This document shows, in pieces, positions 3,321 through 12,579 of a stretch of 37,703 nucleotides of DNA. Location: contig JAFQAT010000027.1 of assembly GCA_017399865.1 (NCBI GenBank), positions 1 to 37,703 on the forward strand, written 5' to 3'. This stretch comes from Bacteroidales bacterium. GTDB lineage: Bacteria > Bacteroidota > Bacteroidia > Bacteroidales > UBA932. Under the pieces are notes generated by a model. It worked only from the letters and a program-made list of their open reading frames with translations, searched no databases and was not told the origin of the DNA. The position numbers and the translations under genes were made by a program. Each line of letters begins with the position of its first letter. Positions within the stretch are counted from its first letter, which is position 1.

Positions 3321-5867
3321 ATGAAACTATCGGAACTGAAGACAGGTGAGCGTGGCGTGATCGTTAAGGTGAACGGTCACGGGGGATTCCGCAAGAGGAT
3401 AATCGAGATGGGTTTCGTGAGAGGCAACAAGGTCAATGTGATCCTGAATGCTCCCTTGCGTGACCCCATCGAGTATGAAATCATAGGATACAAGATCTCT
3501 CTTCGCCGAGAGGAAGCTTCGAAGATAGAAGTGATCAGCGAGACGGAGGCGAAGGAGATGCTGTCGGACCGCGAGTCGCTTCCGGCCCTCGAATCGGAGG
3601 AGGCGTGGATCGAGCGCGGGATGACCACATTGGCGGAGGAACGCCGAAAGGTGATCAGGGTTGCTCTGGTCGGAAATCCCAACTGCGGAAAGACATCCCT
3701 TTTCAATATTGCTTCGGGCAGCCATGAACACGTCGGCAATTACAGCGGAGTGACCGTGGATGCCAAGGAGGGTACTTTCGAGCATGGGGGATATACCTTC
3801 AAGATCGTAGACCTGCCGGGCACATACTCGCTTTCTGCCTATAGTCCGGAAGAACTTTATGTCCGTAAGAACCTTATCGAGGATGTTCCTGACGTTGTGA
3901 TCAATGTTGTAGACGCGTCGAACCTCCAGCGAAATCTTTATCTGACCACCCAGCTTATAGACATGAACCTCAGGGTTGTGATGGCCCTGAACATGTATGA
4001 CGAGCTGCAGGCCAAGGGCGACAAGCTTGACATCAAGCAGCTGGGATGGCTTCTGGGCATGCCTGTCGTGCCGACCGTCAGCCGTACGGGCGAAGGAATA
4101 GATGCCTTGTTCGATACGGTGATTCAGATATATGAGAAGGCGGATCCGAGCCTTGCGCGCCATATCCATATCAATCATGGAGCGGAGCTGGAACTCAGCA
4201 TAAACCGCGTTAAGGACCTGATCTCCAAGACTGAAGACATACGATCGAAGTATTCTACACGATATCTTGCCATCAAGTATCTTGAAAACGACATGGAGAT
4301 AGAAGGCGTGGTCGAAGCGCTTCCGGACCGTGACGAGATCATTTCCGCCCGTTTCGAGGAGAATGCGAGGATAAGGGGGCTGCTCGGCTCCGGCCTTGAG
4401 TCGTCGATGGTAGATGCGAAGTATGCGTTCGTCCAAGGTGCCCTGGCAGAGACATATGTCCCTTCCTCAAGGAAGAGGAAATGGCACACTTTGACGGACC
4501 GCATAGATGCCGTGGTCACCAACAGATGGATGGCCTTCCCGATATTCTTCTTCCTGCTATATATCGTATTCAATACTACGTTCGTGGCCGGAGAGTATCC
4601 TATGAGGTGGATAGAATGGCTGGTTGAGACCTTCGGAGCCTTCGTCTCATCGATGATGGCGGACGGGTGGCTGAAGGATCTGGTCATCGACGGAATCATC
4701 GGCGGAGTCGGCAGCGTGCTTGTCTTTCTGCCGAATATTCTCCTTCTGTATCTGTTCATCTCCCTTCTCGAGGACTCCGGATACATGGCTCGCGCCGCGT
4801 TCATAATGGACCGTCTGATGCATAAGATCGGCCTTCACGGAAAGTCATTCATCCCGATGGTCATGGGATTCGGCTGTAATGTGCCTGCAGTCATGGCGAC
4901 CAGAACGATCGAAAGCCGCAAGAGCCGCCTGATCACAATGCTCATCATTCCGCTTATGTCGTGTGCGGGACGTCTGCCGGTATATGTGCTCATAGCAGGA
5001 GCCTTCTTCCCCCGCCATGCCGGTCTTGTGTTGCTTGGACTATATGCATTGGGTATAATCCTGGCCGTGATTGCGGCGAAGGTGATGAGCACTTTCTTCA
5101 AGGATGACGACCTTCCTTTCGTGATGGAACTACCTCCTTACCGTGTACCTACGGCGAAGTCCATCTTCAGACATACTTGGGAAAAGGGACGCCAGTATCT
5201 CCAGAAGATGAGCGGCATCATACTCGTATGTTCTATGGTGATCTGGTTCCTCGGATATTTCCCTAACCACGATGCTTACGGCAGCGTCCAGGAACAGCAG
5301 GAACACTCATTCATCGGATATGTCGGCAAGGCAATGGAGCCGGTTCTCGAACCTCTGGGATTCGACTGGAGGATGGGAGTTGGCATCGTTGCGGGTGTAG
5401 GCGCCAAGGAACTGGTGGTCAGCACTCTAGGTGTGATGTATGCCGATGAGGAGCCTGTCGGCACCGGTCCTGCTCTTGCCGGTCCTGCTGGTCCTGCGCT
5501 TGACGGGTCTGACGGTCTGGAGGCTTCTGCCGGGTCTGCTATTCCGGAGGCTTCTGTCGGGTCTGACGGTTCTGGCGCTTCTGCCGGGTCTGCTCTTACC
5601 GGGTCTGCCGTTGTTGACGGAGACGAGGTTCCGTCTTCCGGAGCCGACACGCGTCTGCAGAAGGCTTTGGTGCGCTCGGTAACTCCTGCAGGAGCACTTG
5701 CCTATATGGTCTTCATCCTCCTTTACTTCCCGTGCATAGCCACCTTCGTCGCCATCAAGAATGAAAGCGGAGGCTGGAAATTGGCCATAGTGACGGCAGT
5801 CTACACAATCCTCCTCGCCTGGGTAGCCGCCTTCATCACCTTCCGCCTCGCCTCCCTCTTCCTGTAG
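3321..5867 (+). CDS. feoB: Ferrous iron transport protein, FeoA-FeoB fusion
   Basis: This 848-residue GTP-driven Fe(II) importer of the inner membrane is a natural fusion. Residues 1-72 form a FeoA (SH3-like) domain. The FeoB G domain follows: G1 GNPNCGKT (118-125), G2 around GNYSGVTV, G3 DLPG (164-167), G4 NMYD (224-227) and G5 near SRTG (254-257). After a helical spacer come the membrane domain and both Gate regions, including CGRLPVY and GVGAKELVVST. The unusual part is residues 710 to about 775, a low-complexity Ala/Gly/Ser/Pro/Asp stretch encoded by degenerate 27-bp repeats in the loop before the last membrane segments. The frame stays open through it. FeoA-FeoB fusions are known in Bacteroidota; the repeat insertion is the odd feature. 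Confidence 0.96.
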   Translation: MKLSELKTGERGVIVKVNGHGGFRKRIIEMGFVRGNKVNVILNAPLRDPIEYEIIGYKISLRREEASKIEVISETEAKEMLSDRESLPALESEEAWIERGMTTLAEERRKVIRVALVGNPNCGKTSLFNIASGSHEHVGNYSGVTVDAKEGTFEHGGYTFKIVDLPGTYSLSAYSPEELYVRKNLIEDVPDVVINVVDASNLQRNLYLTTQLIDMNLRVVMALNMYDELQAKGDKLDIKQLGWLLGMPVVPTVSRTGEGIDALFDTVIQIYEKADPSLARHIHINHGAELELSINRVKDLISKTEDIRSKYSTRYLAIKYLENDMEIEGVVEALPDRDEIISARFEENARIRGLLGSGLESSMVDAKYAFVQGALAETYVPSSRKRKWHTLTDRIDAVVTNRWMAFPIFFFLLYIVFNTTFVAGEYPMRWIEWLVETFGAFVSSMMADGWLKDLVIDGIIGGVGSVLVFLPNILLLYLFISLLEDSGYMARAAFIMDRLMHKIGLHGKSFIPMVMGFGCNVPAVMATRTIESRKSRLITMLIIPLMSCAGRLPVYVLIAGAFFPRHAGLVLLGLYALGIILAVIAAKVMSTFFKDDDLPFVMELPPYRVPTAKSIFRHTWEKGRQYLQKMSGIILVCSMVIWFLGYFPNHDAYGSVQEQQEHSFIGYVGKAMEPVLEPLGFDWRMGVGIVAGVGAKELVVSTLGVMYADEEPVGTGPALAGPAGPALDGSDGLEASAGSAIPEASVGSDGSGASAGSALTGSAVVDGDEVPSSGADTRLQKALVRSVTPAGALAYMVFILLYFPCIATFVAIKNESGGWKLAIVTAVYTILLAWVAAFITFRLASLFL
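5463..5620 (+). repeat. In-frame 27-bp degenerate tandem repeat inside feoB
   Basis: The clearest units are 5520-5546, 5547-5573 and 5574-5600, each nine codons long. They translate as EASAGSAIP, EASVGSDGS and GASAGSALT, followed by a partial unit. A 17-base word recurs exactly at 5524-5540 and 5578-5594. Related GPA/GSD codons lie just upstream. Confidence 0.85.
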
Positions 5868-5954: not shown

Positions 5955-6020
5955 GGTTTGTTACGCAGGTGTTTGTAAAGAATTGATTTGTAGTGGCTTA
6001 TGGGGTATGGTGTGCTAAAC
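5955..6020 (-). repeat. REP-like repeat, left inner copy
   Basis: This unit has the opposite orientation to the left outer copy and ends GTGTGCTAAAC. It shares TTTGTAAA followed by an ATTGA block with the copy at 7051-7115. The transposase stop codon (6015-6017 on the minus strand) lies inside it. Confidence 0.55.
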
Positions 6021-6903
6021 TAATTCTTTGACATACTTGGGATCAAGATGAATGATACGGGCAATCTGCTTCGGTGAACACAGATATTCCTTGCGCAGCT
6101 CTTTAGCAAGTCGTATGCGCATCTGTGCATCCAGCCTGCGTAGATTGGTTGTGCGGAACATCCTCAAGCATAGAGTCACAGCCTTCTCCCGGAGCTCCAT
6201 GTCAGGAAGTGCCACTTTATCGTTTATTCCGAGGCTCCGGTTGATTTCTTCCTCTTTGCTCTGCCCCATGAAGAATGTGAAGCTCTTTGGTGTGCGGAAA
6301 AGTTTTTCCACCATCTTGTAGTCTACGTAGTTACCTGGCCATATATATCCCTGTGGTGTAATTTTCCAGTCAGCTGGGATAGTGGCCTGGGTCTGAAACA
6401 GACGTCTTTGCTCCCTTAAGGTCAGATCAGAAACCTGTTTCCAACCAAAAGTAATCTCAGACATCTTTTCAGGCAGTCTGAAATATAGTCCTCCTGATGA
6501 CCATTGATAATCTTCCGGGCACCAGCAATATCCGGCAGCAATGCTGTTACGTAATGCATACGCTATCGAGTTGAGGATATAGCGCTCCTTTACATGAATA
6601 GCGGTTTGAGTGCCATATCGCATATTTATGTATGAATCTGTCTCTGAATCGCTTGCATTCATCTAATGTCCCATAGAGAATAAAGTGGACATGATTGTCC
6701 ATCAGACAGAATGCCAGTATTCTGACATTGCATTTAAGCATGCACAAGGCAACGAGGTTCATGCCAGCTATAAAAGCTTGCTTGTCTTCAAATAGATAGT
6801 CTGAACGGAAACCGTCAGAAAACAGATGGTAGAATCCGGGCTTTTCCATATATCGTATCGTTATTATCTCTCTCCTCATTCTCCCTCCTTTCCTGATATA
6901 CAA
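6015..6903 (-). pseudogene. REP-associated tyrosine transposase (Y1/IS200-like), frameshifted
   Basis: Two overlapping minus-strand frames together make one transposase of about 295 residues. The upstream frame (6903-6547) has the Y1 fold with the HUH metal-binding motif in M-D-N-H-V-H-F. The downstream frame (6662-6015) continues with the helix expected to carry the catalytic tyrosine, then P-E-D-Y-Q-W-S-S, which is typical of RAYT proteins. It ends in a C-terminal helix-turn-helix-like tail (SPKQIARIIHLDPKYV). Switching frames needs a +1 shift near nt 6600-6660. It could be a decayed gene, a sequencing error or a programmed frameshift. Start codons at 6903 or 6879 are both possible. The enzyme class is confident; whether it is functional is not. 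Confidence 0.75.
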
Positions 6904-7778: not shown

Positions 7779-9149
7779 TTATTTCCTTGGAAGGCGAAGG
7801 AAGATGGCGATCAAGGCGAATGTTCCCATTACGAAAGGATAGTAGAGGTATCCGATTATTGAGATCGATGATGCCCCGGACAGTCCGGCAGCCATCAGAA
7901 GCTGGGCTCCGTATGGGATTATTCCCTGGATCAGACACGAGAAAGTGTCGAGGATACTTGCGCTTTTGCGTGGGTCAAGTCCATATTTCTTCGTGATATC
8001 CTTTGCGATGCCGCCGGTTGTGATGATTGCTATCGTATTGTTTGCTGTGCAGAGGTTGGCAAGGGATACCAGGCCGGCGATGCTGAGCTCCGCACCGCGC
8101 TTTCCGCTTATCTTACGGGTCATGCCGCTGACGATGAAGTCCAGTCCACCGTTGGCACGGATCAGTTCAAGCATGCCTCCGGCAAGCATTGTCACGATGA
8201 TCAGATCTCCCATTCCGCTGATTCCGTCCCCTACAGATGTCAGGAAAGATGTCCAGCCAAGGCTTCCGTTGAGGAAGCCGATGATGGCGTTAACGAACAG
8301 TCCTATCGTCAGCACTGCAGCTACATTGATGCCTGAAACAGCGAGCACGATGACAAGAATATAAGGAACCAGCAGGATCCAGTCTATAGGGCCGGCTTCA
8401 GGCGTTACATATACGGATGATCCCAGTATTATATAAAGTATTGCAACGATTATTGCTGCCGGACCGGTGATCCTGATATTTGCCTTGAACTTGTCCGACA
8501 TAGAGCATCCCTGGGTCCTGGTCGCTGCGATGGTCGTGTCTGATATGAACGAAAGATTGTCCCCGAAGAATGCTCCTCCGACTATGATGGCAGTGATGAA
8601 GGGTGTGCTTGAGAGGACCCCTGATGCTCCCGTGAGAGCCAGTTCTTCAGCGATTCCCGCTGCAACAGGCACGAGAGCGACTATAGTTCCGACGCTTGTT
8701 CCTATGGACATGGAGATGAAGCATGCGGCAAGGAAAAGACCTGCATAAAGCAGTCTGCCCGGAAGTATCCTTAACGCCAGATTTACCGTGGCATCGATTG
8801 CTCCGATCTCCTTCGCTGTTGCCGCGAACGCTCCTGCAAGCACGAATATCCATATCATCAGGAGCACGTTCTTGTTGCCGGCCCCTTCCGAGAATATGGC
8901 GATCCTCTGCTCCAGAGTCTTTCCGCGGCAAATGATGACGGCATAGATCGATGCGATCAGGAATGCCGCAGAGATAGGGATGGCATAAAAGTCCCCGACC
9001 ACTATGGATGAGACAAGGTATACGCAGAGGAATACGAGCAGCGGGCTCAATGCAAGCCAGCCGTTCATCGGTCTGGCTTCATATGCAGCCCATTTCTTCT
9101 TGACCCCTTTCAGGAGGTCGTTGATGTATCTGTTTGGAATAATGCCCAT
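7779..9149 (-). CDS. nhaC: Na+/H+ antiporter, NhaC family
   Basis: This 456-residue inner-membrane protein has about a dozen hydrophobic segments. The S-I-G-T-S-V-G-T-I and G-G-A-F-F-G-D-N-L-S-F-I-S-D-T-T motifs are diagnostic of NhaC-type antiporters in the ion-transporter superfamily. Such proteins export Na+ (or exchange organic anions) against protons. The frame could extend to 9281, but the extension is polar and passes through a predicted -7 box at 9170-9177, so I use the ATG at 9149. It diverges from queH, and the two probably have back-to-back promoters. The ion or metabolite specificity cannot be read from the sequence. Confidence 0.88.
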   Translation of the reverse strand: MGIIPNRYINDLLKGVKKKWAAYEARPMNGWLALSPLLVFLCVYLVSSIVVGDFYAIPISAAFLIASIYAVIICRGKTLEQRIAIFSEGAGNKNVLLMIWIFVLAGAFAATAKEIGAIDATVNLALRILPGRLLYAGLFLAACFISMSIGTSVGTIVALVPVAAGIAEELALTGASGVLSSTPFITAIIVGGAFFGDNLSFISDTTIAATRTQGCSMSDKFKANIRITGPAAIIVAILYIILGSSVYVTPEAGPIDWILLVPYILVIVLAVSGINVAAVLTIGLFVNAIIGFLNGSLGWTSFLTSVGDGISGMGDLIIVTMLAGGMLELIRANGGLDFIVSGMTRKISGKRGAELSIAGLVSLANLCTANNTIAIITTGGIAKDITKKYGLDPRKSASILDTFSCLIQGIIPYGAQLLMAAGLSGASSISIIGYLYYPFVMGTFALIAIFLRLPRK

Positions 9150-9169
9150 GGGAAATTGTTTTGCGGGTG

Positions 9170-9177
9170 CAAAGATA
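9170..9177 (-). promoter_or_regulatory. Predicted Bacteroidota -7 box for nhaC
   Basis: The minus strand reads TATCTTTG, an exact TAnnTTTG match, 21 bases before the nhaC ATG. It supports the short start. Confidence 0.5.
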
Positions 9178-9190
9178 CATAAAATTGGAT

Positions 9191-9198
9191 TATCTTTG
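9191..9198 (+). promoter_or_regulatory. Predicted Bacteroidota -7 box for queH
   Basis: TATCTTTG on the plus strand is the same octamer used on the opposite strand only 13 bases away. The queH ATG (9244) lies 45 bases downstream. Confidence 0.45.
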
Positions 9199-9243
9199 CG
9201 GAGATATCTCGACTTCGATCGATATGACAAATAGAGGCTTGAT

Positions 9244-10002
9244 ATGATAGAGAGAGGGCAGATAAAGGCAGATAAGAACAAGCGTACGGGGCTTCAGGCG
9301 CCGATGGGGGAGACTACGGTCCTCCTCCACACCTGCTGTGCACCATGCTCAAGCGCCATAATCGAGGCGATGATGCAGAACGGGATAACTCCTGTCATAT
9401 ATTACTGCAATCCCAACATCTATCCTCGGGAAGAATACGAGATCCGCAAGAACGAATGTACAAGGTACGCCCAGGCTTTAGGCTTGGAAATCATAGATGC
9501 GGACTATGACCATGAGAACTGGCTTGATGCTGTCAAAGGTCTTGAAGGAGAGCCGGAAAGGGGAGGACGCTGTCTGAAATGCTTCAAGCTCCGCCTGCTC
9601 CGTACGGCACAGTATGCCCGTGAGAGTGGCATAAAGGTGATTACCACAACCCTGGCTTCATCCCGCTGGAAGTCCCTTGACCAGATAAACGAAGCCGGAT
9701 TATGGGCCTGTCAGACGGTGTCGTCCGGAAAATCCCGTGCTTTTCCGGATAAGGGAACGGAATCAGGCAGTTTGTCCGGGAATGTACAGGATATCCCGGA
9801 TAAAGAACAGGAATCAGTCTGTCTGTCCGGGAAACGCCAGGAAAATACGGATGCGGATATGATTCAGTCTGAAGTCATCTGGTGGGACCATAACTGGCGT
9901 AAAGGCGGTCTTCAGGAGCGCCGCCTCCAGATAATCAAGGAATACGATTTCTACAACCAGCTCTATTGCGGCTGCGAATTCAGCATGAGAAAGGAGGACT
10001 AA
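9244..10002 (+). CDS. queH: Epoxyqueuosine reductase QueH, with repeat insertion
   Basis: The 252-residue protein matches QueH (DUF208), the iron-sulfur enzyme that reduces epoxyqueuosine to queuosine in tRNA. The cluster-binding cysteines are present: H-T-C-C-A-P-C (C31, C32, C35), R-C-L-K-C (C110, C113) and Y-C-G-C (C242, C244). The middle motif T-T-L-A-S-S-R-W-K is also typical. Between the family's QINEAG helix and the W-W-D-H-N-W-R-K segment lie about 45 extra residues (roughly 160-205), encoded by 51-bp palindromic repeats. The rest of the protein is intact, so it is probably functional. The start could also be at 9304 (MGETTVLLHT), as residues 1-20 are not conserved. Its stop overlaps the stop of the convergent lipoprotein gene. 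Confidence 0.9.
   Translation: MIERGQIKADKNKRTGLQAPMGETTVLLHTCCAPCSSAIIEAMMQNGITPVIYYCNPNIYPREEYEIRKNECTRYAQALGLEIIDADYDHENWLDAVKGLEGEPERGGRCLKCFKLRLLRTAQYARESGIKVITTTLASSRWKSLDQINEAGLWACQTVSSGKSRAFPDKGTESGSLSGNVQDIPDKEQESVCLSGKRQENTDADMIQSEVIWWDHNWRKGGLQERRLQIIKEYDFYNQLYCGCEFSMRKED
9724..9858 (+). repeat. In-frame palindromic 51-bp repeats inside queH
   Basis: Two units with a 17-codon period read FPDKGTESGSLSGNVQD and IPDKEQESVCLSGKRQE. A partial unit flanks each side. The first hairpin is a perfect 9-bp inverted repeat, TCCGGAAAA (9724-9732) with TTTTCCGGA (9741-9749). The second pairs TCCGGGA (9775-9781) with TCCCGGA (9794-9800). A third half-site lies at 9826-9832. Confidence 0.8.
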
Positions 10003-10433
10003 AGACCTCCTTCACATGATTTCACTACGACCTCGCAACCTTCCTTTACCTCTGCAGGAATCTCGCACCTGGTATACCGGGTGCTTTCGGCAGCGTCGTT
10101 TTTGGACGTCAGGGTAAGATTCTTGTCTTTTATCTCGACATCATATGCTGCTGCCCATTCTTCACCGTCGTTATATTTTCCGGTAAGAAGGCCGTTCTCA
10201 AGATTCCATGTTCCGCGGTAGAGACGGTATGCACCGGAGCCGATCTTCTGGTACATCTCGAACGTCTTGTCTTCTCTGAAACCAAGATATACGTCTCCGC
10301 TTACAGACAGTGATGTGCTGTGCCATTCTCCGCACAGCTGTTCCTCAAGCGATATCTTGCTGTCCTTGTCCTTTCCGCAACCTGCCAGTATCAGCAGTGC
10401 TGAAAATATGTATAGTAACTTTTTCATGTTCAA
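9999..10433 (-). CDS. Small lipoprotein, lipocalin-like beta-barrel candidate
   Basis: The 144-residue protein opens with a lipoprotein signal peptide whose lipobox is L-A-G-C. A short charged linker follows, then a G-E-W-H-S-T-S segment and alternating strand-rich sequence (TFEMYQKIGSG, YRGTWNLENG, LTLTSK). That pattern resembles the small lipocalin-like lipoproteins common in Bacteroidota, but I cannot name a family with confidence. It lies 37 bases downstream of the subtilase gene on the same strand and may be co-transcribed with it. The start could be Met1 or Met3 (10427). No function is assigned. Confidence 0.75.
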   Translation of the reverse strand: MNMKKLLYIFSALLILAGCGKDKDSKISLEEQLCGEWHSTSLSVSGDVYLGFREDKTFEMYQKIGSGAYRLYRGTWNLENGLLTGKYNDGEEWAAAYDVEIKDKNLTLTSKNDAAESTRYTRCEIPAEVKEGCEVVVKSCEGGL

Positions 10434-10444
10434 TGCGTTTTTGA

Positions 10445-10465
10445 ATTTCCGGGCTGGCCGGAAAT
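10445..10465 (-). repeat. Perfect 8-bp hairpin between the subtilase and small lipoprotein genes
   Basis: ATTTCCGG and CCGGAAAT are separated by five bases. No T-run follows on either strand, so it is a weak terminator candidate. Its core (TTTCCGG/CCGGAAA) resembles the palindromes inside queH. Confidence 0.5.
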
Positions 10466-10470
10466 AATGT

Positions 10471-12579
10471 TTAGAGCCATCCTCCGTTGCTGGTTGCGAA
10501 AGGTCTTGATGCTATAGAAAGTTCACGGACATATGACATTTCGCCGATTCCGTCTTCCTTTGAAGCGTCTTTTCCGACCGCTCCCTTGAGGACGATCTTT
10601 CCGGAGCCGATCTTCGAGCACTCGATCTCAAGCTTACCGTTCCTGATGACAGGGTCCGACGCAAGTCCGAGAGCTGTCTTTGTGGCTGAATCGACACTGA
10701 CGGTATAATTGTCATAAGGATTGCAGTAGCGGCTGATGTCTATGCTCATCTTCTTTCCTGCCTGGGTCAGGATGGTAGGCGTACCTTCGATGGCCATGAG
10801 GAACTTCCATGCATCCACAGCTCCTGTTCCCATCTTTCCCTTGTATTTTCCGAGGTCGAGCTTGGTCCATGAGTAGCTGCTGAGGTCATAATAGTCCTTT
10901 GTTCCTGTAAGGCTCGCGTCCATCTCGTTGACCGAGGTAAGGAGCAGGGACTGGAACTCATCCCTTGTCAGCTTCTTGCCTATCTTCTTTGCATAGGAGA
11001 TTCCAAGAGCGGCGACTCCGGATACATGAGGACATGCCATCGATGTTCCCTGCATGTAGACATAATTCTGGTTGCCTTCGATGCCCGGTGATCCCTGGGC
11101 GGCATTCGAGACACCTGTTGAAAGGATCATCATGCCGTAGTTCTTATCGTCGAAATATTCTCCTCCAGGTGCAGCTACCTTGCATCCGGGACCATAATTG
11201 GTATATCCTCCAGGAAGGTAGTCGGCTCCGAAAGCAGTCACTGAAATCACATAAGGAAGGGCTCCCGGATAGCTTGAGTAAGGCTGTCGGTGGTTTCCTG
11301 CCGCGAAGACGGCGATGTTTCCTTCCAGAGACTGGTGGTTGCTGTTAGCCGGGTCAAGGAAATACTTCAAGGCAGCATTTTCAAGAGGCGATCCGTCGAT
11401 CTTCACATCCTTTCCGTCGATCTTGAACTCGCCTCCGTTTATGTACATGTCGTCGCTTGTGATGGCATAAGAGTTTCCGTATGAGCATTGAGCTATGCAG
11501 GCTCCGTTGTCAGCGGCGTATATGAATGCAGCGGCATTCTGGGCGTCGGAAGCGCTTCTGCTGCCTTCGAATATCTGGCATGACATGAGTCTGACGCCGT
11601 CCCCCTTGCCTGTGCCGCCGGCAATCGAGCTCACTCCTGTGCCGTTGCCGTTTTCAGCTCCGATGATTCCGGCCACATGGGTTCCGTGGCCGCTTCCCTT
11701 GGTCCAGTTCAGAAGGCTGCCCTTGACTGCTTCAACGTCCTTTCCTTCAAGAACTCCGTTGACGTAGTCCTTAGTTATCTTGGTGCATCCAACGAAGTTG
11801 AATCCGTATTTGTCATCTATGAATCCGTTTCCGTCATCGTCCACGTTTACGTCGCCGTTCAGTTCGGCTTCATTTACCCAGAGGGAATTCTTGAGGTCCT
11901 CATGCATGCTGTTCACTGCGCAGTCGAAGACGGCCACAATCACACTAGGGTCACCTCCTGTGAGCCTCCATGCGTCACGCACTCCTACGTCAGCACCGGC
12001 AACGGCGTTCTTGGCGACAGTCTTGTCTCCCGTGTTCACAAGGTTCCACTGATAAGGAAGATACGGGTCGTCGAATCCGTAAGGTGAATCTTCAGGAACA
12101 GGGCTCATCTTCGTCTGAGGCGCAGGAACGAACTCCACGACCTTGTCGGAAGTCACCGGTTCCAGGAACGAGTTGTACTGGACGGATACCACCGAAGGAA
12201 GCGATGCAGCCTTGGCTGCAGCTTCCCGGAGAGGGGTGCTTTCGTCAAAGCTAATCTGATACCATCTGTGAAGCCCGTATTTTCTGGCGACTTCCGCGTT
12301 CTTAGGCTGGATCAGGAGGGCCGGGAAGAGGTCATCGGCCTCTGATACGGCCAGGATGCCCGCGACAGCCTCTGCATCGCCTCCGGCAATGCGTGCCGCT
12401 GTCGCTTCATCGAGCTTCACCAGCAGCGAACCCTGCTGGAATTCTCCCTGGGTGTCTCCCACGATCTTGGTCATGAGGTCCTTTCCTTCCTGAGCGACAG
12501 GACCGTTTTCCGTAATCTCCTTAGTACATGCAGTACCTGCAAGCGTCAGCACTGCCAGAGCATAAAAGATTCTCTTCAT
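10471..12579 (-). CDS. S8 subtilisin-like serine peptidase lipoprotein
   Basis: This 702-residue protein has a lipoprotein signal (lipobox near A-G-T-A-C, C18). Residues about 45-140 look like an inhibitor-type propeptide (GSLLVKLDEAT ... VVSVQYN). The subtilase domain (about 165-560) carries D219 in V-F-D-C-A-V-N, H298 in G-H-G-T-H-V-A-G, oxyanion N429 in A-A-G-N-H and S513 in G-T-S-M-A-C-P-H. The triad is complete, although the Asp motif reads D-C-A instead of the usual D-[ST]-G. About 110 C-terminal residues form a beta-rich tail. It starts 4 bases after the GH2 gene, so the two are in one operon. It could process or degrade surface or host proteins; the substrate is unknown. Confidence 0.88.
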   Translation of the reverse strand: MKRIFYALAVLTLAGTACTKEITENGPVAQEGKDLMTKIVGDTQGEFQQGSLLVKLDEATAARIAGGDAEAVAGILAVSEADDLFPALLIQPKNAEVARKYGLHRWYQISFDESTPLREAAAKAASLPSVVSVQYNSFLEPVTSDKVVEFVPAPQTKMSPVPEDSPYGFDDPYLPYQWNLVNTGDKTVAKNAVAGADVGVRDAWRLTGGDPSVIVAVFDCAVNSMHEDLKNSLWVNEAELNGDVNVDDDGNGFIDDKYGFNFVGCTKITKDYVNGVLEGKDVEAVKGSLLNWTKGSGHGTHVAGIIGAENGNGTGVSSIAGGTGKGDGVRLMSCQIFEGSRSASDAQNAAAFIYAADNGACIAQCSYGNSYAITSDDMYINGGEFKIDGKDVKIDGSPLENAALKYFLDPANSNHQSLEGNIAVFAAGNHRQPYSSYPGALPYVISVTAFGADYLPGGYTNYGPGCKVAAPGGEYFDDKNYGMMILSTGVSNAAQGSPGIEGNQNYVYMQGTSMACPHVSGVAALGISYAKKIGKKLTRDEFQSLLLTSVNEMDASLTGTKDYYDLSSYSWTKLDLGKYKGKMGTGAVDAWKFLMAIEGTPTILTQAGKKMSIDISRYCNPYDNYTVSVDSATKTALGLASDPVIRNGKLEIECSKIGSGKIVLKGAVGKDASKEDGIGEMSYVRELSIASRPFATSNGGWL

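Follow-up and report, generated by a model that had tools for sequence, protein, structure and literature searches.

The in-frame palindrome array of a Bacteroidales queH gene probably belongs to a REP-like system with a divergent HUH transposase

How does an enzyme gene come to carry, in frame, an array of DNA palindromes? We ask this of queH (epoxyqueuosine reductase) in the Bacteroidales genome GCA_017399865.1 (G000 below), within a window of 37,703 nucleotides, the whole stretch of contig JAFQAT010000027.1 that was analysed, where a sequence-only reading had described hairpin units between conserved QueH blocks. The best reading is that uncultured Bacteroidales have a REP/RAYT-like system and tolerate its arrays as coding sequence, and we judge it probable that the insert is a REP-like array which a divergent HUH (Y1) transposase dispersed and which came to rest in a QueH loop able to tolerate it. 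The features of the gene are as follows (palindromes and spacers have no strand).

9244-10002, plus strand: queH (epoxyqueuosine reductase) with the insert; 252 aa; Pfam PF02677 (QueH), E=4.1e-58
9721-9873, plus strand: expanded QueH loop, residues 160-210; open frame, the usual gap being 16 residues
9724-9749: unit 1, 26-bp palindrome with perfect 9-bp arms and an 8-nt loop (pattern, covariance model, folding)
9750-9774: spacer 1, 25 bp, 18 of 25 positions identical to spacer 2
9775-9800: unit 2, 26-bp palindrome with 7-bp perfect outer arms (pattern, covariance model, folding)
9801-9825: spacer 2, 25 bp (sequence)
9826-9851: unit 3, a decayed palindrome that keeps the 51-bp spacing (covariance model, E=0.008; without a stable hairpin)

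The window protein is a QueH by its domain and its conserved cysteines, and the solved QueH structure 7lc5 aligns to residues 25-152 before the insert and 213-249 after it. Between the DQINEAG and NWRKGG blocks we measured 65 residues versus the usual 16, about 49 extra; the insert first described is real, if somewhat longer than the roughly 45 residues then given, and the cysteines outside it are kept as claimed, with nine of them, rather than six or seven, invariant over 60 QueH sequences. QueH activity is presumably retained despite the insert, and the array is best read as coding sequence that this loop tolerates.

The insert is indeed built of 51-bp units with hairpins, the first stem being a perfect 9 bp as described: its DNA holds three units (starting at 9724, 9775 and 9826) separated by 25-bp spacers, and Tandem Repeats Finder, supplied with no period, recovered a 51-bp period at 9745-9842. 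The units share the consensus TCCGGRAA...TTYCCGGA, with a pyrimidine-purine step at each foot, and repeat every 51 bp. Folded as single-stranded DNA and compared with shuffles, units 1 and 2 do better (z -3.9 and -3.2) and unit 3 no better (z -0.2), and a covariance model trained on 44 sequences (including queH units 1 and 2, excluding unit 3) detected all three in the genome (E=2e-5, 3e-4 and 8e-3). All nine pairs are intact in only 3 of 74 units, and inner stem positions give no covariation above shuffles (83.3% versus 83.7% paired); because the inner stem pairs carry no compensatory signal, we call the unit a dyad that can fold rather than a proven hairpin. Folded as RNA, the whole insert (9715-9860) is more stable than its shuffled versions (z -3.2), and units pair with one another in that fold; Rfam gave no match at the gathering score over 9000-10800.

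Similar units lie outside queH, and the in-frame palindromic element proposed for this coding gene of a Bacteroidota genome is both present and, as had been suspected, dispersed. With 150 of 967 covariance-model candidates scored, we found 12 units at five places in G000: three in queH, four on contig C34 (with a fifth by pattern), two on C23, two on C61 and one, again in frame, in metH on C82. The model had been trained on eight of these 12, the others being queH unit 3, two C34 units and the metH unit. On C23 and C34 the arrays sit between ORFs, and on C61 a glycosyltransferase gene ends in a unit, which contains its stop codon. Further model matches in G000 were one weak match on C52 and a terminator-like palindrome on C46, and the perfect palindrome at G000:C46:39296, flanked by A and T runs in the manner of a terminator, was rejected as a unit. 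Pattern matches number 18 versus 3 in a reversed control for G000, 48 versus 0 for G032 and 23 versus 0 for G021, and they fall below the control in 5 of 38 genomes (G001, 4 versus 10; G006, 2 versus 3; G024, 1 versus 3; G026, 2 versus 3; G031, 1 versus 5). The covariance model gave 91 strand-wise matches in G032, most sites being counted on both strands, and no unit in G012. Among the matches listed, G080:C100:3544-3953 holds TCCGG hairpins in pairs, with 52 bp between the two members of a pair and 112 bp from one pair to the next, a dimer-like arrangement.

Counting gaps between successive pattern matches at 26 loci of G000, G021 and G032, without any spacing condition, we found 33 of 43 to be 51 bp, four to be 52 and one to be 50. 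Because arrays outside genes share this spacing, 51 bp looks like a property of the element and not an outcome of reading-frame selection, and since it equals 17 codons an array can gain or lose units without a frameshift.

What, then, disperses the units? On contig 17 of G032, a 311-aa ORF with an HUH motif (L094:2692-3624, plus strand; a relative is at L349:2998-3912, plus strand) has units on both sides: three before it, ending at a distance of 22 bp, and eight after it (one to three mismatches each), starting at 15 bp. Aligning this protein with 33 relatives, we found H75, H77, Y133 and N137 invariant in all 34, Y133 being the putative catalytic residue. Pfam and NCBIfam detect most members of the clade weakly or not at all: at E<=0.1, Y1_Tnp matches 12 of 34 (best 1.6e-5) and REP_Tyr_transpos (NF047646) 9 of 34 (best 1.8e-6), and the G032 protein scores below both cut-offs (15.6 bits for a cut-off of 23, and 12.5 bits for one of 80). 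The best solved-structure matches are transposases, weakly (2xm3, E=0.03), and the G032 protein has one relative in IMG/VR and none in plasmid and phage records at E<=1e-5.

Repeats on both flanks are a feature of many such genes. Requiring at least 8 common 10-mers between 600-bp flanks, we found matching repeats on both sides of 43 of 79 HUH genes of the genus (drawn from returned or hand-chosen loci, not at random, two being fragments without an HUH motif) versus 21 of 6162 mismatched pairs, and within the clade for 22 of 33; about half of the genes tested, not all, are thus flanked by palindromic repeats of their own, as is typical of RAYT genes. A strict test for like hairpins on the flanks gave 25 of 76 versus 29 of 5700 mismatched, and a relaxed one within the clade 22 of 35 versus 51 of 1190, the G032 gene failing the strict test (score 7) and barely passing the relaxed one (15). 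These hairpins, often at 51- or 52-bp spacing, differ from gene to gene (AGCACAAAA..TTTTGTGCT at G000:C48, TGTGCAAAA..TTTTGCACA at G004:C34, TCCGTAAAA..TTTTACGGA at G026:C25). Co-divergence of hairpin and transposase was rejected by a Mantel test, which found their similarities uncorrelated (rho 0.014, 2060 of 5000 permutations as high).

This lack of correlation is what one would see if another enzyme moved the arrays, or recombination spread them, and an HUH gene now flanked by them had merely landed there, and the own assembly, in which we saw no gene with matching flanks, points the same way. However, the repeats found on both sides of an HUH gene differ from those of other HUH genes, and we regard such a bystander role as unlikely. 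Of six HUH matches in G000, the three listed (C4, C48 and C17; 51%, 36% and 24% identity) are without TCCGG flanks, and no HUH gene occurs in the stretches round the other four own-genome arrays (that of C34 being cut by the contig end). The window itself holds an HUH transposase-like gene at 6015-6903 on the minus strand, 2.3 kb from queH and broken into two overlapping frames (ORFs 6547-6903 and 6015-6662); genes of G021, G024 and G026 that lie about 2 kb from queH are 70-86% identical to it. Pfam matches neither piece of the window gene, and its flanks are not TCCGG and have only one common 10-mer. By eye, a diverged direct repeat, TGTGTGCYA..CTTTAAA..TTTGTAAA, lies at its sides. Among the own-genome HUH genes examined, in an assembly 77.8% complete, there is no TCCGG-flanked transposase behind the queH array.

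If the array is REP-like, its units would be mobile, and a divergent HUH (Y1) transposase would move or copy them, presumably with the single-stranded hairpins as its substrate, in the manner of TnpA-REP/RAYT and IS200 enzymes. Such a transposase would have dispersed arrays across mainly herbivore-gut Bacteroidales, one of them landing in the tolerant QueH loop in a stop-free frame, where it could then gain or lose 17-codon units without a frameshift.

Local slippage, by contrast, would have made the queH units by tandem duplication with no mobile element at all. Adjacent units are alike, with a spacer identity of 0.47 within versus 0.32 between arrays (the arrays compared being chained at 50-52 bp by construction), and the two spacers of the window match at 18 of 25 positions. 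The unit nevertheless recurs at four other places in its own genome, in many congener arrays and beside a transposase-like gene, which refutes slippage as the origin of the unit and makes it improbable as the explanation of the insert; because neighbouring units resemble one another, growth of an array after arrival may be plain tandem duplication.

A second gene, metH, carries in-frame units in graded number. Scoring 14 of 22 metH loci with a broadened pattern (TCCGK, either strand, at most 3 mismatches), we found the linker between the first two domains to be 42 aa with one unit in G000 and G007, 59 aa with two in G021 and 76 aa with three in G032, in steps of 17 residues; where no unit is present it spans 36-40 residues in 8 of 10 scored congeners, and 50 and 85 in the other two. 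Both long-linker proteins (59 and 76 aa) score as MetH above the curated cut-off. Upstream of VPV[IM][VI]SVSVGDRSGRT in the metH of L091 and L100 we also noticed a second stretch whose length and sequence are not the same in G032 and G021.

The unit phase is the same in queH and metH, and within both genes only 51-bp spacings occur, as they also would if a 17-residue tandem peptide (SGKxxxxPDK) had been selected in both proteins and the palindrome were a by-product of its codons. That no stop codon is found in the 25 longer inserts scored among named QueH relatives fits selection on the peptide as well (the longer inserts of the 28-locus survey described below, taken from stop-free ORFs, are stop-free by construction). 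The same arrays, however, lie outside genes at C23 and C34, and at the glycosyltransferase end with a stop inside a unit. In a small sample, moreover, the insert diverges about evenly over the three codon positions, whereas the QueH core (G000, G021, G032) does so mainly at the third: for G000-G021 we obtained 0.40/0.44/0.48 over the 25 codons of insert versus 0.11/0.01/0.44 in the core, with some pairs showing their highest insert value at the third position (G021-G032, 0.44/0.36/0.72). Over four species (G000, G021, G032 and L228), the number of agreeing positions is 24-31 of 36 in the palindrome arms, which are thus kept, but 5-8 of 16 in the loops and 5-14 of 25 in the spacers. Selection for the peptide is in our view quite improbable. 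A relic CRISPR-like array, which short palindromic repeats at regular spacing might bring to mind, is scarcely credible given that the repeats vary in loop and arms, that the spacers of one array are partly related and that the arrays are many, short and scattered.

Returning to the REP-like array and the loop that holds it, relatives show the insert to be absent from many QueH proteins and not conserved in distant ones, as the earlier reading would have it. Among the best 80 of 156 relatives (named loci, all titled as Bacteroidales or Bacteroidia, 69 scored by program and the other 11 read by eye), 47 have the 16-residue gap and no insert and 33 are longer, the TCCGG type being present in only three (L228, L231 and L242). 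A first survey, in which 37 of 61 genomes matched, loci were obtained for 30 and 28 were scored, the window included (L031 and L037 did not parse), gave 14 loci of 15-16 aa and 14 longer. In a queH tree of 60 sequences, many of its nodes weakly supported, the longer loops and L283 fall into one group, made up mainly of herbivore-gut MAGs, within which the TCCGG type turns up at three places (the window with L242; L231; L228). This suggests either an old insert, lost and replaced many times, or repeated insertion. Nearest among the named relatives stand MAGs of uncultured Bacteroidales, Candidatus Cryptobacteroides records being more distant.

The other QueH inserts at the same loop are other, unrelated repeats. 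That of G026 recurs at four more places in its genome, one of them in frame in hutI (L365:226-1611, minus strand), and that of G023 at six places elsewhere. For the G033 insert, we found two copies: one of 82 bp (98%) about 0.26 kb past the 3' end of an HUH gene, and one of 79 bp (95%) on a different contig, with a Y1_Tnp match about 1.5 kb away. Comparing queH inserts with the HUH loci of the same genome (all but G035 and G006, for which no HUH locus was at hand), we counted 79 common 12-mers in G033, 6 each in G000 and G032, and 0 or 1 in nine others. Among 34 distinct longer inserts (the 11 eye-read loci being left out), 10 can pair at their 3' end with the QueH flank of the same species in a perfect stem of 8-14 bp (G012, G004, G008, G024, L229, L232, L241, L245, L251 and L254), compared with 0.5% of codon shuffles; the window insert is without this stem. 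The almost empty queH site of L247 is itself a 15-bp perfect hairpin, and in L227, a near relative of L247, the element is bounded by 41-bp direct repeats 162 bp apart. Because insert ends pair with their own flank and an almost empty site is a hairpin, the DNA at the QueH loop may itself be the attractant. More broadly, and tentatively, since we hold it to be somewhat doubtful in its full breadth, uncultured gut Bacteroidales could harbour a large and mostly unrecognised HUH clade, many members with a hairpin array of their own at a spacing of about 51 bp, and the QueH loop would be a repeated landing site where unrelated dispersed repeats become coding sequence. Elsewhere in the window, the FeoB ORF (3321-5867, plus strand) contains in-frame imperfect tandem repeats with periods of 9-27 late in the protein (5465-5593), perhaps another tolerated insert.

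How does this element compare with known systems? REP elements inside ORFs, including RPE-4 and RPE-6, are already known, as is a Bacteroidetes TnpA-REP subclass with atypical flanking structures. As far as the available excerpts go, REP elements are palindromes beside an HUH transposase with copies elsewhere, some inside ORFs (PMC2817692, PMC3733652, PMC6006769), and the present element resembles REP and RAYT/TnpA-REP (REPtrons, BIMEs/REPINs) in its short palindromes beside an HUH gene, its genome copies and the presence of some in ORFs; it probably works like one. It differs in its units with an 8-nt loop and a period of about 51 bp, in a 311-aa protein mostly below family cut-offs and in copy number, REP usually exceeding 100 per genome versus 12 units in the own genome. 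The foot motif separates it from the described REP classes: in the 8 nt on the 5' side of the stem, 1 of 74 units has the GT[AG]G foot conserved in GTAG-type REP (according to the accessible part of PMC8266576), and the CGTC foot, which in CGTC-type REP goes with a 4-5 nt loop, occurs in 17 of 74, here with a loop of 8 nt.

Subclass 2.6 of Bacteroidetes TnpA-REP (RAYT group 5), whose genes are flanked by atypical secondary structures with copies elsewhere in the excerpted account of PMC6006769, is alike in those structures and in being mostly found in Bacteroidetes; by that same description it is unlike in protein, with a median of 179 aa versus 311 here and YIH[QN]NP versus Y133 followed by xNRN. 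The sequence-only reading had compared the insert with Rickettsia RPE, and the likeness holds for in-frame insertion in conserved proteins (queH and metH here), while REP with HUH (RAYT) transposases, rather than RPE alone, is the closer parallel. RPE and CGTC-tagged intragenic REPs, in the available text of PMC3733652, give in-frame peptides in unrelated proteins, with clusters encoding 43-82 aa; CGTC repeats reportedly do not flank transposase genes there, whereas TCCGG arrays do in G032. PARCEL, as excerpted from PMC2996958, consists of tandem palindromic translated repeats spread in genomes, with a 25-residue amphipathic motif in ORFs without assigned function, unlike the 17 residues, little peptide conservation and housekeeping enzymes seen here. 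The accessible portion of a 2025 REP survey gives few Bacteroidota examples (PMC12306157), and in the parts of the open-access literature available to us (subscription papers lying outside this scope) we found no description of the present combination.

A system of this kind would widen the REP/RAYT idea so that it includes a divergent transposase clade from a common group of uncultured gut bacteria and, with candidate substrates lying beside many HUH genes, would make specificity testable pair by pair. The metH series (no, one, two and three units) offers natural in-frame growth and a view of mobile DNA becoming protein, and the inserts mark the QueH loop as a place of repeated enzyme lengthening.

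One further hairpin of the window, at 10445-10465, had been proposed as a dispersed copy because of its TTTCCGG core, and this does not hold: the covariance model does not find it and its arms run in reverse order (TTTCCGG...CCGGAAA versus TCCGGAAA...TTTCCGGA in the units), so we rejected it as an array unit. The hairpin itself is real (folding z -3.9) and stable, and it lies directly past the stop of a minus-strand S8 peptidase gene, where it is perhaps part of the transcript end.
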